Under the pieces are notes generated by a model that saw nothing but the letters and a program-made list of their open reading frames with translations, searched no databases and had not been told where the DNA came from. A stretch of DNA of 64,000 nt from Alkalicella caledoniensis (GTDB lineage Bacteria; Bacillota; Proteinivoracia; Proteinivoracales; Proteinivoracaceae). Location: NCBI RefSeq assembly GCF_014467015.1, contig NZ_CP058559.1:2356001-2420000 (forward strand), read 5' to 3'. Shown here in pieces: positions 8,291 through 12,397 of the stretch. The first letter of the stretch is position 1; every line of letters starts with the position of its first letter. The position numbers and the translations under genes were made by a program.

Positions 8291-9133
8291 ATGGATAATA
8301 TTATTTCAGTTAGAAGTGTATCAAAAAACTTCAAGGAGAACGTAGCTATCAAGAACTTAACATTTAATGTTAAGGAGGGTGAAATTTTTGGTTTTCTAGG
8401 TCCCAGTGGAGCAGGGAAAACAACTACAATAAAACTATTGACTTCACAGTTGATACCTTCTGGTGGAGATGCTATGGTTTTTGACAAACATGCATATTTG
8501 CAGAAAAAAGAAGTTTTTAAACAGATTGGTGTGCTTACCGATAATAGTGGTATATATGAAAGACTTTCTGTTAAAGACAACTTGAGTCTATTTGCAGAGA
8601 TAAATGAGGTTCCTAAAGAGAACATTGCTCATGTTTTGGATAAGGTGGGATTGTTACCTTATCAAAATAAGGAGGCAAAAAAGTTGTCTAGGGGAATGAA
8701 ACAAAGGCTCATGTTAGCTAGGGCAGTACTTCATAAACCTAAGCTTTTATTCTTAGATGAGCCTACATCTGCGCTAGATCCTGGCACTACCTTGGAAATT
8801 CATAGGCTTTTGCGACAACTAAATGAAGAAGGAACAACTATTTTTTTGACCACCCACAACATGGAGGAGGCAGATAAGCTTTGTCATAGAGTGGCCTTTT
8901 TAAATGAAGGAGAAATAGTTGAGATGGGGGAGCCCCAAAAACTAAAGTTAAAGTATACTAATAACAATATAAAAGTAATACTAAAAGACGATAATCATGT
9001 GGTGATTAAAAATGACAAAGAAGGTGCTGCTAAAATTAATTATTGGATGGCTAGAGGGGATTTAGCAGCAGTTCATTCTATGGAACCAAACCTAGAAGAG
9101 ATATTTCTAAGATTAACAGGGAGGGAATTATAA
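8291..9133 (+). CDS. ABC transporter ATP-binding protein
   Basis: A 280-residue ABC ATPase with all motifs: Walker A GPSGAGKTT (about residues 38-46), signature LSRGMKQRL, Walker B LLFLDEPTSALDP and switch histidine in TTHNMEEA. It belongs to the ABC-2 export type (antibiotic or sodium exporters). The last base of its stop codon is the first base of the permease start, so the two are translationally coupled. The LytTR fusion upstream is the probable regulator. The substrate is unknown. Confidence 0.9.
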   Translation: MDNIISVRSVSKNFKENVAIKNLTFNVKEGEIFGFLGPSGAGKTTTIKLLTSQLIPSGGDAMVFDKHAYLQKKEVFKQIGVLTDNSGIYERLSVKDNLSLFAEINEVPKENIAHVLDKVGLLPYQNKEAKKLSRGMKQRLMLARAVLHKPKLLFLDEPTSALDPGTTLEIHRLLRQLNEEGTTIFLTTHNMEEADKLCHRVAFLNEGEIVEMGEPQKLKLKYTNNNIKVILKDDNHVVIKNDKEGAAKINYWMARGDLAAVHSMEPNLEEIFLRLTGREL

Positions 9134-9858
9134 TGGAGGGTTCAATAAGAAGAGTAAAAGCACTGTTTAAAAAGGAGATTAAGGATTTCCCTAAAAACAT
9201 GAATGTATCACTAATGTGCCTTCTTCCCCTTGTGTTAATACTGCTGTTCTCTAATATCCAAGGAGATAGCCCTAATCAGGGGATGAAAGGGATAGATTTA
9301 CTAAACACGGGTTTAAGTACAAATCTTGTTGTTGTATCTACATTTGCTATTTCCATGTTAATTGCAGAAGAAAAAGAAAAAAATACAATGAGGACGCTGA
9401 TGTTGTCATCAGTAACTCCCGCTGAGTTTTTGGCAGGGAAGGCAATAGTTATTTTTCTATTTTCAATAGTAACTAATACAATTATTTATTTTATAGCTGA
9501 AATAGATCAACAATATTTTGGGCACTATTTTTTATGGTCGGTGATTGTAACTGGTATTATGATGCAAATAGGAGGAATCATCGGCTTAATTGCTCAAAAT
9601 CAGATGTCTACAAGTGTTCTTGGTGTGCCTGTAATATTTGCCTTTATGATAATTCCTATGCTTGCACAAGCCAATGATATTTTAGAGAAAATTGCTTCTA
9701 TATTACCGAATCATAACCTGAGTATATTATTGGAAAACATTTTTTCTGGTAAAGGGTACACCAACTCATCTTATAATATATTAGTCATTTTAGCATGGCT
9801 CATCCTAGCAGCCATAGCATTTATCTATACTTACAACAGAAAAAGCTTGGATAAATAA
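9133..9858 (+). CDS. ABC-2 type permease
   Basis: A 241-residue membrane protein with about six hydrophobic segments (near residues 25-42, 58-76, 98-116, 132-152, 158-175, 212-233). It has the ABC-2 phrase AEEKEKNTMRTLMLSSVTPAEF (in parts: EEKEKNT, TLMLSSV) after the second segment. It starts within the stop codon of the ATPase. It is the membrane half of the exporter. Its own terminator was split by the IS insertion just downstream, which may alter 3' processing of this message. Confidence 0.85.
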   Translation: MEGSIRRVKALFKKEIKDFPKNMNVSLMCLLPLVLILLFSNIQGDSPNQGMKGIDLLNTGLSTNLVVVSTFAISMLIAEEKEKNTMRTLMLSSVTPAEFLAGKAIVIFLFSIVTNTIIYFIAEIDQQYFGHYFLWSVIVTGIMMQIGGIIGLIAQNQMSTSVLGVPVIFAFMIIPMLAQANDILEKIASILPNHNLSILLENIFSGKGYTNSSYNILVILAWLILAAIAFIYTYNRKSLDK

Positions 9859-9886: not shown

Positions 9887-9906
9887 AGGCACACCCTAGT
9901 GTGCCT
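9887..9906. repeat. Left copy of 20-bp target duplication (terminator hairpin)
   Basis: AGGCACACCCTAGTGTGCCT, preceded by AAAA. It is identical, including the asymmetric CCTA loop, to 11840-11859, so it is a direct repeat rather than an inverted one. It keeps a T-tract only on the minus strand. Confidence 0.8.
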
Positions 9907-11839
9907 CATCTTGTAGACAAACCTAAGATAAAGTCATTGACCCTAGATCTGTATATTAAAAAGCAGTACAATTAATTCGAGGAGATAGACTTAAGAGCTG
10001 AATAGCTAAACGGAAGAAGGGGCGAGAAACAGGACGTCAGACTGTGTGGCTAATCTCTAAAAACTCAAAGATTAGCCGTAAATTTCCTGTCTTTTGGTGC
10101 AATATGACTTAAACATATAAAAATACAATGATAAAGTGGGTCTAAGAGCTACTAATATCCTTAGTAGTTCTTTCACTCCTATAATATTTATTACTCTTTT
10201 AAAATTATAGGCTAGCAAAACTAGGGCTGTCTCTGTAGTTACAGAATCCATCCCTCTTGTTAAAAAATACCCAGCATTCATTGTCCTTTTGATGGTTCCA
10301 TAAGGATGCTCAACAATCATCTGCCTTTGTAGGTATTTGTCCATATTTGCTTCTGTTCTAGCATCTATAGTATCCAAAAAATCTTGGTTAGGTGACCGAT
10401 TTATTATCCTGCCTTTGGCTGCAGTGGTGCATTTGCTTTTTGATTCACAGTTTTTACAGGCATCGTAGTTTCTATATTTTATTCTTTTTGGTTCTTTTGA
10501 TTTGTGGTTTATTCTGCGTAATTCATGGCCCAAAGGACAAATATATAAGTCTTTTTCAGGCACATAAGTAAATTTATCTCCGTAGAAATCTTTGTCTCCT
10601 GTGGCGTTAGAATACGACTGTTTTGGCAAATAGACTGTTGTTTCGTTTCTCTCACATTTCATAAGGTCGTCTGCTTGGTAATAGCCTTTATCTGCTGCTA
10701 CTTCAAGTTTCCTTTTTCCAAATATATCTTTAGCCTTTTCTGCAAGTGAATTTAGATTACCTTGATCTGCGGGATTGTTTGTAACATCATATGCCACTAT
10801 AATACTATGCTTAGAGTCTACAGCTGTTTGTATGTTATATGCTACAGTAACACCATTGTTTTTGTTGTCCATAAGCCTAGCATCTTCGTCAACTGTAGAT
10901 ATTTCATTACTTTCGCTATCCTGTAGTTTTTTTTCCAACTCTTCAAATTTAATTTTACGCTCCTTGAGTTTTTCAATTTTTTGCTGAATTTCTTCAGGTG
11001 TATACTTAAGTTTAGGTGAATCGTCTTTGTCACTGCTTTCTAACAAATCTAGATAGGAATTAACCTTATCTTCGATATATTGTTTGTGTCTTTGTATTTT
11101 TTTCTTTGAGAAATTATTCTTCTTTGAATTATTAGCTTGAATTTTAGTCCCATCTATTGCTATGAATTCCTCGCCTAATAGTTTGAGATCCTTACACAAC
11201 TTAGTAAAATCCTTGAAAACTTGTTTTAGCTGAGTTTTATTTTCTTTCCTGAAATCAGCTATTGTTTTAAAATCAGGTTTTAGTTTTTGTAATAGCCAAA
11301 CCACTTCTATATTCCTGTGAGATTCTGTTTCTAGCTTTCTAGATGATCTTATGCCATTTACATACCCATATAGATATAACTTCAATAAAACAGAGGGATG
11401 ATATCCTGGTGCACCTCTGCGGTGTTCCTTTGATTTAGTGAATGCACTCATATTGACCAGTTTTACGTATTCATCAATTACCCTAACGGGATTATCCTCA
11501 CCTATGTAATCTTCTATGCAGTCAGGAAACATTGTTTTTTGCTTTCTATCTGTACCTTGTATAAATGACATTTAAAATCCCCTCTCCGATATTCTATAAC
11601 TTAATTATACTACAGAAAAAGGGAAAAGTACTGTATTTACAGTACTTTGTAGGCATTTTAGACATATATTATTGTTTAATTCTCACACAGTCTGACGTTT
11701 CGAGAGCTCCATTTACCATGGACGGTGAATTGGAGCGGTACCCTTCTGGAGTTTAGATAGAAGCCTTAAGTCTCGACGCAGAATTTTGTACAGCGTTTAA
11801 TATGCGACATTCCTAAAAAATGACTTTGTCATCAGTCTG
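9907..11839 (-). mobile_element. IS1182-family insertion sequence with long imperfect terminal inverted repeats
   Basis: The element lies between 20-bp direct repeats and is 1,933 bp long. The outer about 130 bp at each end are imperfect inverted copies; shared blocks include GACAAA, ATATTAAA, GTACAA, AGACTTAAG, CTAAAC and AGAAGGG in the same order. An inner perfect 15-bp pair is 10034-10048 / 11684-11698. The transposase gene occupies the middle on the minus strand. From memory, IS1182 elements reach this size and some favour palindromic targets. An alternative is a 1.67-kb IS inserted in an older palindromic element. Confidence 0.75.
10072..11571 (-). CDS. IS1182-family DDE transposase
   Basis: A 499-residue transposase that looks intact. 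It has an N-terminal domain (FRKENK, HPSVLLKLYLYGYVNGIRSS), a catalytic core with AIDGTKIQAN (first Asp), AADKGYY (second Asp) and VEHPYGTIKRTM (Glu region), and a cysteine set CxxC...C typical of the family's insertion. It would cut and paste the surrounding element. A hairpin (10048-10077) overlaps its 3' end and may terminate its message. Confidence 0.9.
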   Translation of the reverse strand: MSFIQGTDRKQKTMFPDCIEDYIGEDNPVRVIDEYVKLVNMSAFTKSKEHRRGAPGYHPSVLLKLYLYGYVNGIRSSRKLETESHRNIEVVWLLQKLKPDFKTIADFRKENKTQLKQVFKDFTKLCKDLKLLGEEFIAIDGTKIQANNSKKNNFSKKKIQRHKQYIEDKVNSYLDLLESSDKDDSPKLKYTPEEIQQKIEKLKERKIKFEELEKKLQDSESNEISTVDEDARLMDNKNNGVTVAYNIQTAVDSKHSIIVAYDVTNNPADQGNLNSLAEKAKDIFGKRKLEVAADKGYYQADDLMKCERNETTVYLPKQSYSNATGDKDFYGDKFTYVPEKDLYICPLGHELRRINHKSKEPKRIKYRNYDACKNCESKSKCTTAAKGRIINRSPNQDFLDTIDARTEANMDKYLQRQMIVEHPYGTIKRTMNAGYFLTRGMDSVTTETALVLLAYNFKRVINIIGVKELLRILVALRPTLSLYFYMFKSYCTKRQEIYG

Positions 11840-11859
11840 AGGCACACCCTAGTGTGCCT
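11840..11859. repeat. Right copy of 20-bp target duplication (terminator hairpin)
   Basis: Identical to 9887-9906. It is followed by TTT on the plus strand, so this copy terminates only rightward transcription. On the minus strand, where the acetyltransferase gene reads through, the T-tract has been replaced by IS sequence. Confidence 0.8.
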
Positions 11860-11884
11860 TTAATCAGTTTTGAGTATATGTTTA

Positions 11885-12397
11885 TTATTTTATCTCGAAT
11901 GTATATGCCGAAGCTAGAGCATCGTCGTAAACTCCACAAATATTTTCATGATGTTTATAATTTTTTCCAACTTTTTCTTCTATTACATTCTTCCAAAATT
12001 TGATGGCCGCTGGGTTTTTAGGATGTACTGTCATTTCCCATTTACCCTTATGTAGATTGAATACCTCTCTTGCAGCAAACTTACCGATGCCTAGTTTTCT
12101 ATATTTTTTCATTACAAAAAATTCAGACATAAATAGAGTGTCTGGATCCTTAGACACATAGCAATAATCACAAACCATCACAAAGCCTGCTAGTTTATCA
12201 TCAACCTTAATAAAATACGGGAAGCGTCCTTTCTCTGTCCAATAATAGTCCAGGTAAGAATATCCATATAGCCCCAAGGCATTAACATCACTATTTTCAA
12301 ACTCTGAAAAATCATATTCGTACAATTCTATAAGACGAGCTAATATTGTCTTTTCTTCTTCTAGCACGGGAACAATCTTAATCTGCATCTTTTTCAA
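11885..12397 (-). CDS. GNAT-family N-acetyltransferase
   Basis: A 170-residue protein with the GNAT core: FMSEFFVMKKYRKLGIGKFAAREVF (in parts: FFVMKKYR, RKLGIGK) is motif A, the acetyl-CoA pyrophosphate loop (family Q/RxxGxG/A; here RKLGIG), and NPAAIKFWKN is motif B. The acceptor substrate is unknown. It runs toward the IS element; its former terminator was split by the insertion. Confidence 0.8.
   Translation of the reverse strand: MKKMQIKIVPVLEEEKTILARLIELYEYDFSEFENSDVNALGLYGYSYLDYYWTEKGRFPYFIKVDDKLAGFVMVCDYCYVSKDPDTLFMSEFFVMKKYRKLGIGKFAAREVFNLHKGKWEMTVHPKNPAAIKFWKNVIEEKVGKNYKHHENICGVYDDALASAYTFEIK

Follow-up and report, generated by a model that had tools for sequence, protein, structure and literature searches.

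How did one and the same hairpin come to stand on both sides of 1933 bp of transposable DNA, between two genes that converge on it? The hairpin, AGGCACACCCTAGTGTGCCT, is 20 bp long and lies in the window, the whole 64,000-nucleotide stretch of Alkalicella caledoniensis DNA that was analysed, between genes for an ABC permease and a GNAT acetyltransferase (Table 1). Its two copies were identical at 20 of 20 positions on the same strand, and no further copy with up to three mismatches was found in the 64 kb, where none was expected (100 shuffles). The direct repeat described in the original prediction was thus confirmed. In reading order, the left copy stands between AAAA and CATCTTG and the right copy between CAGTCTG and TTAATCAG; the A-flank is kept on the left only and the T-flank on the right only, as had been claimed, with a right T-run that is short. 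Each copy has an 8-bp stem (-12.3 kcal/mol), and a consensus terminator scan called neither of them a terminator. We read them as a terminator because of the other copies of the element described below and because the flanking genes are convergent. Further out, the flanks TATACTCAAAA (left) and TTTTGAGTATA (right) form an inverted repeat, except that on the right eight additional bases, TTAATCAG, stand beside the hairpin (window 11860-11880); these somewhat resemble the element end ATCAGTCTG.

Table 1. Features of the hairpin-flanked unit and its neighbours (positions in the window)
Feature	Position	Strand	Details
ABC-2 type permease gene	9133..9858	+	PF12698, 4e-12; points at the element
Hairpin, left copy	9887..9906		A-tract outside, no T-tract inside
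Left terminal repeat	9907..9921	+	CATCTTGTAGACAAA; element consensus CAGCTTGTAGACAAA
MITE-like element, left arm	9907..10037	+	includes one ACGT; query 1-131 matches IS-free copies
First GGA hairpin, 5' part	10026..10037	+	GAAACAGGACGT; interrupted by IS1182
ACGT target duplication, left copy	10034..10037		4 bp, from the nested IS1182
Nested IS1182-family IS, 1657 bp	10038..11694	-	ends CAGACTGTGTG
Transposase, 499 aa	10072..11571	-	NF033551, 393.4 bits (cut-off 270); PF13751, PF05598
ACGT target duplication, right copy	11695..11698		4 bp, from the nested IS1182
MITE-like element, right arm	11699..11839	+	query 1788-1933 matches IS-free copies
Second GGA hairpin of the TwoAYGGAY-like RNA	11715..11726	+	ACC-AUGGAC-GGU
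Right terminal repeat	11825..11839	-	CAGACTGATGACAAA on the - strand
Hairpin, right copy	11840..11859		T-tract still present outside
GNAT acetyltransferase gene	11885..12397	-	PF00583, 5e-9; points at the element

The 1933 bp between the hairpins were found to be composite, an IS1182 nested in an element of about 272 bp. A search with the whole unit in the genome to which the window belongs (G000, a single contig of 3.7 Mb) gave 73 matches. Seven of them were whole, 13 covered the middle only (query about 126-1795), and many consisted of the two arms side by side with the middle absent. Thirteen G000 copies carried the IS1182 inside the arms at the same site; its orientation was one way round in 7 of them and reversed in 6. 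The nested IS is 1657 bp long (1656 bp in one copy), with a 15-bp perfect inverted repeat that includes the ACGT, and in 20 of 20 copies the same 4 bp stood on either side of it as a duplication (18 copies with ACGT, 1 with CCGT and 1 with ACGC). Seven of these 20 copies lay outside the element, and a whole duplicated hairpin around the 1657-bp IS alone was found in none of the seven. Since the arms are often found without the IS, the IS occurs in either orientation and it has its own 4-bp duplication, we regard it as a later guest, for which the IS-free copies of the element are the natural empty sites.

The original prediction had a single IS1182 enter the terminator and duplicate the hairpin. 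An IS1182-family transposase is indeed present between the hairpins, and relatives of IS1182 are reported, in the available extracts of the literature, to target palindromes. However, arms without the IS still have the hairpin duplication, the IS sits in both orientations within the arms, and its own duplication is always the 4-bp one. Its transposase is also just 22% identical to the transposase of a hairpin-duplicating IS1182 in genome G235; because of this identity and the different duplication, it is not the expected mobiliser of the element. It is thus very unlikely that this IS1182 duplicated the hairpin, and that part of the prediction gives way to an IS that landed inside a pre-existing non-coding element.

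Outside the element, several copies of the nested IS (L008, L009, L011, L012, L013, L017 and L019) were located in GAGACA...TGTCTC sites, which we take to be an apparently dispersed REP-type palindrome. G000 also has five copies (L103-L107) of another IS1182-type IS, with the ends GAGGGCACTGAAAA. Several of them likewise occupy terminator-like hairpins, but their duplication measures about 8 bp and lies close to the tip of the hairpin.

The outer element is about 272 bp long, with variants of 174-405 bp, contains no gene and ends in CAGnnTGnnGACAAA. Its terminal pattern has 36 occurrences in G000 and 72 in a relative, G002, against a single occurrence of the reversed pattern in each genome. 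The traits of a MITE were present: the element is short and non-coding, has more than 30 dispersed copies in G000, carries CAGnnTGnnGACAAA as terminal inverted repeat and is flanked by target duplications. Its terminal inverted repeats and target duplications, together with an IS1182 partner, led us to drop readings as a group II intron or an IS605-type element. Miniature forms with both ends were also observed, of 174 bp (L128:1485-1658), 121 bp (L135:1483-1603) and 63 bp (L224:893-955), the last of which is an almost pure palindrome. The element is a landing site for further insertion sequences: a second IS1182 type lies inside one copy (L126:1009-3165, C1:1075508-1077664), and another copy (L129:1900-4116) contains a gene that is presumably IS110-like.

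To describe the target, the left and right flanks of 51 bounded copies (33 in G000 and 18 in G002) were compared, and a score of at least 12 was taken as a duplication. The comparison leaves out the single-ended copies L037, L127, L130 and L131, the divergent copies L045, L048 and L050, and those G002 copies that ran into a contig edge or did not fit a strict pattern for the ends, so that 18 G002 copies were used against 39 RF01731 matches listed in that genome. A locus-specific hairpin duplication of 17-38 bp (median 24) was observed in 40 of the 51 copies, and 11 had no clear duplication at this score. When flanks from different copies were paired, none of 632 pairs reached 12 and the best scored 7.5. 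The duplicated sequences vary between loci and almost all are hairpins. Their borders are symmetric about the hairpin: pairing among the outer 7 positions is 0.82 in register and 0.34-0.50 after a shift of 1-3 bases (37 copies whose borders were clean), so the length of the duplication is set by the hairpin. Another element with the same ends, in genome G253, gave a hairpin duplication in 26 of 30 copies (30 of the 40 matches listed) and in 0 of 870 mismatched pairs.

Hairpins stand on both sides of most copies, as would be expected if the element brought its own two terminator hairpins or if two hairpins had stood at each site beforehand. The paired hairpins, however, match within a locus and differ between loci in both elements, and a site with a single hairpin was found in a sister species. 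The flanks of the G002 copy L078 matched G001, of the same genus, at C3:331244-332690 (82%) and 332739-334185 (93%), leaving a gap of 48 bases. The gap contains one hairpin, AGAGGCAATGGAAAAACACCCATTGCCTCT, and no element, whereas in G002 the element lies between two copies of AGAGGCAATGGAAAAACACCCATTGCCTCT. For this G002 locus, which is a different one from that of the window, the empty-site comparison named in the original prediction as a possible refutation thus came out in favour of duplication. A second locus compared with G001, L079, gave no clean single-hairpin site. Own or pre-existing hairpins are extremely unlikely given these results. That insertion duplicated the hairpin, and that other copies would also sit in duplicated hairpins, was borne out generally in G000, G002 and G253, though for the hairpin-flanked elements instead of the IS1182.

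The original prediction also assigned the T-tracts to the outward sides only. Across copies, the T count in the 8 bases past the hairpin was 2.46 and 2.41 on the inward sides and 4.51 and 4.84 on the outward sides (p 5e-9 and 2e-9), indicating that the T-tract survives on the outward sides and is lost on the inward ones; the window copy is a weak example of this arrangement. That the neighbouring genes simply lose their terminator is not supported as it stands, because the hairpin near to each gene is T-less and the far copy retains its T-tract, which makes a complete terminator there. Judging from this anatomy, a message from either neighbour would pass the T-less hairpin, cross the element and stop at the far copy, and transcripts begun inside the element would be halted at both exits. 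The outward terminators may in this way insulate the neighbouring genes, as had been suggested. Insertion of this kind would be a route into a terminator that leaves a complete terminator each way.

A transposase that could mobilise the element was sought in this and other genomes. G235 contains a complete IS1182 element of 1733 bp with CAGACTGTAGACAAA at both ends (CAGACTG ends), and a transposase of 498 aa (NF033551, 453.6 bits, cut-off 270). It is flanked by an exact duplication of a 22-bp hairpin, AAGCCGTGGATATCCACGGCTT. In G001, pieces of an IS1182-family transposon with the ends CAGACTGTAGACAAA and CAGACTGAAGACAAA stop at contig edges by terminator-like hairpins, and two of these edges share one hairpin. 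The terminal pattern CAGACTGNWGACAAA was present in 57 of 398 Bacillota genomes, and many of 30 such loci examined were preceded by a hairpin end, as judged by eye. No matching autonomous transposon was found among the 31 PF13751 matches of G000, nor any element copy with an intact matching transposase in that genome; such transposons were seen only in G001 and G235. The shared ends and the shared type of duplication point to the hairpin-duplicating IS1182 subgroup (G235 type) as the probable source of the mobilising transposase.

Taken together, it is highly probable that an RNA-bearing MITE-like element entered the terminator and duplicated its hairpin, and that a different IS1182 was nested in the element later. 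The non-autonomous element of about 272 bp would have inserted into a two-way intrinsic terminator between the convergent ABC permease and GNAT genes. A hairpin-acting transposase of the IS1182 subgroup may have linked both ends of the element to the hairpin, on either strand at its 5' foot, a chemistry that we infer, and repair would then have copied the whole palindrome, consistent with the symmetric duplication observed.

In tables of IS families, IS1182 is listed with target repeats as long as 60 bp, and whole-hairpin duplications may already be among them. In the available extracts of Wan 2017 (PMC5678879), pathway b of Figure 13 is a hypothetical hairpin-duplicating transposition for which no example is given, and IS1272 removes the hairpin. 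In those of Furi 2016 (PMC4923244), the IS1272-based TnSha1 is located in terminators confirmed by RNA-seq, with the hairpin partly deleted; for the palindromic targets that some IS1182 members use, both papers refer to Siguier 2015. Like the element, IS1272 and TnSha1 are described there as IS1182-family transposition into hairpins, several of them confirmed terminators, with no primary sequence consensus. Unlike the element, they delete or replace the hairpin and do not duplicate it, whereas here the whole hairpin is duplicated. No report of a documented whole-hairpin duplication by IS1182 was found in the open-access literature searched, as far as its text was available and with ISfinder outside its scope. 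The hypothetical pathway thus gains dozens of examples together with the single-hairpin sister site.

Bacterial MITEs, according to the portions available of PMC10969869, are likewise short and non-coding, with terminal inverted repeats, a target duplication and a need for the transposase of another element. Their duplication, however, is of fixed length, whereas here its length is that of the target hairpin and the element carries a conserved RNA fold as cargo; the length of a target duplication would be set by target structure instead of a fixed cut spacing. Insertion of IS into REP palindromes, as described in the extract of PMC1525189, is similarly directed by structure, and the nested IS of the window also occurs in REP-like sites. 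REP sequences form one sequence family, whereas the targets here are unrelated terminators.

The element also appears to encode a structured RNA that is related to TwoAYGGAY (RF01731), an orphan family in Rfam, and has two hairpin loops with GGA. In the window, the nested IS1182 later landed in the first GGA hairpin with its 4-bp ACGT duplication and split the RNA. No Rfam match up to E 1 was obtained for the window copy, since the RNA is split there by the IS; intact copies match RF01731. G000 gave 13 RF01731 matches, the best at 44.1 bits and 12 of the 13 below the curated cut-off of 43, and G002 gave 39 listed matches (E up to 1e-3), the best at 45.7 bits and 14 of those listed above the cut-off. 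In a copy with 35.4 bits (L024; cut-off 43), both GGA loops align and the fold has -94.4 kcal/mol (z -7.9). Two GGA hairpin loops were predicted in 12 of 15 elements in G000, 14 of 16 in G002 and 27 of 30 in G253, and never on the opposite strand. The G253 element has these two loops yet gave no RF01731 match in the loci tested.

The conserved fold could be a feature of the DNA only, a long palindromic MITE whose GGA loops have no RNA function. Both strands are very stable (z -7.9 and -7.5), no consensus promoter was found in the element (none in L024, and in L078 a single site, on the minus strand and outside the element), and forms as short as 63 and 121 bp exist. On the other hand, the pattern of exactly two GGA loops on a single strand is repeated in elements of unrelated families, and the modelled strand was the more stable in 28 of 29 distant matches, which had been selected on that strand. 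Nearly all genomes with RF01731 also have CsrA. We consider a DNA feature only to be rather unlikely.

TwoAYGGAY has two GGA-loop hairpins on a long basal stem, as does the RNA of the element, and is presented in the available parts of Weinberg 2010 (PMC2864571) and PMC4333381 as a structured RNA with function unknown or a predicted CsrA-binding sRNA; transposition is not mentioned in those parts, whereas here the RNA is mobile. No report of TwoAYGGAY in transposable elements was found in the open-access literature searched, as far as its text was available and with ISfinder outside its scope. An RNA family of unknown function is thereby located in a mobile element, and this is relevant to the way RNAs of this kind spread.

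RF01731 was found in at least 40 of 398 Bacillota genomes and at least 21 families by our own count, in which six candidates per genome were scored so that the counts are a lower bound. It exceeded the curated cut-off in G000, G002, G035 and G121. In a duplication test of the more distant genera that required self-complementarity, and that left out L159 (which looks like an interspersed repeat) and L146 (doubtful), hairpin duplication around RF01731 was found at 2 of 2 loci examined in G035 and 4 of 4 in G121; it was not found in most other genera examined, nor at the single match of G004. The mobile form is therefore not the sole form. Related elements are thus present in other Bacillota families as well, and TwoAYGGAY is the body of a mobile element in three families. 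A pattern scan of genome contigs gave one chance match, in a Ruminococcaceae record without RF01731.

RNAs of the CsrB/RsmZ type, which titrate CsrA, have paired GGA hairpin loops and are single host genes with many sites. The RNA of the element shares the GGA loops in pairs but differs in having dozens of mobile copies with two sites each. TwoAYGGAY was proposed as a CsrA-binding RNA by Gardner and Eldai 2015 (PMC4333381), in the part of that paper available. In our survey, csrA was present in 39 of 40 genomes with RF01731 versus 246 of 358 others (Fisher p 2e-5, with genomes counted without correction for kinship). Our best guess is that the element RNA binds CsrA, and its position in a mobile element makes the CsrA-sponge idea directly testable.

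The orientation of the element relative to its neighbours was scored for 43 copies (score of at least 10). For most elements, a gene that reads toward them ends no more than about 120 bp away, and the RNA strand was antisense to co-directional neighbours in 26 of 31 cases (19 of 21 in G000 and 7 of 10 in G002; p 2e-4 overall). The G253 element had no bias, with 12 versus 11. Given the T-tracts on the outer sides only and the short distance to a gene facing it, the element might spread its RNA as a 3'-UTR module, through read-through of the T-less hairpin by the host gene. The host gene, however, would transcribe the opposite strand in those same 26 cases, and the different element in G253 is unbiased, which makes such a module improbable. 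Selection against over-expressed sense RNA is one possibility for the source of the antisense bias. Replication direction was rejected as its cause, with an origin at about 1.85 Mb by GC skew and no trend among the convergent cases by our own count; insertion mechanics are weakened as a cause by the unbiased G253, though this is a different element.

Tentatively, and with rather limited confidence, we suggest that TwoAYGGAY-type RNAs are at least partly transposable CsrA decoys. An IS1182-type transposase would plant dozens of two-site copies in terminators, each of which is duplicated, and neither neighbour would lose its stop signal. If so, copy number would set the level of free CsrA, and the antisense bias of G000 and G002 would reflect the purging of insertions that give excess sense RNA.

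Some TwoAYGGAY copies depart from the common form. The divergent copies L045, L048 and L050 of G000 have longer and different flanks, in which no hairpin duplication was found; two of them share about 100 bp upstream and are perhaps another mobile form. Two expanded copies (L038:6154-6214 and L044:1812-1888) contain a stem that scores with RF02937, Clostridiales-2, at E 9e-5 and 3e-4, below the cut-off, which suggests that RF02937 could be one of the modules of this mobile RNA.
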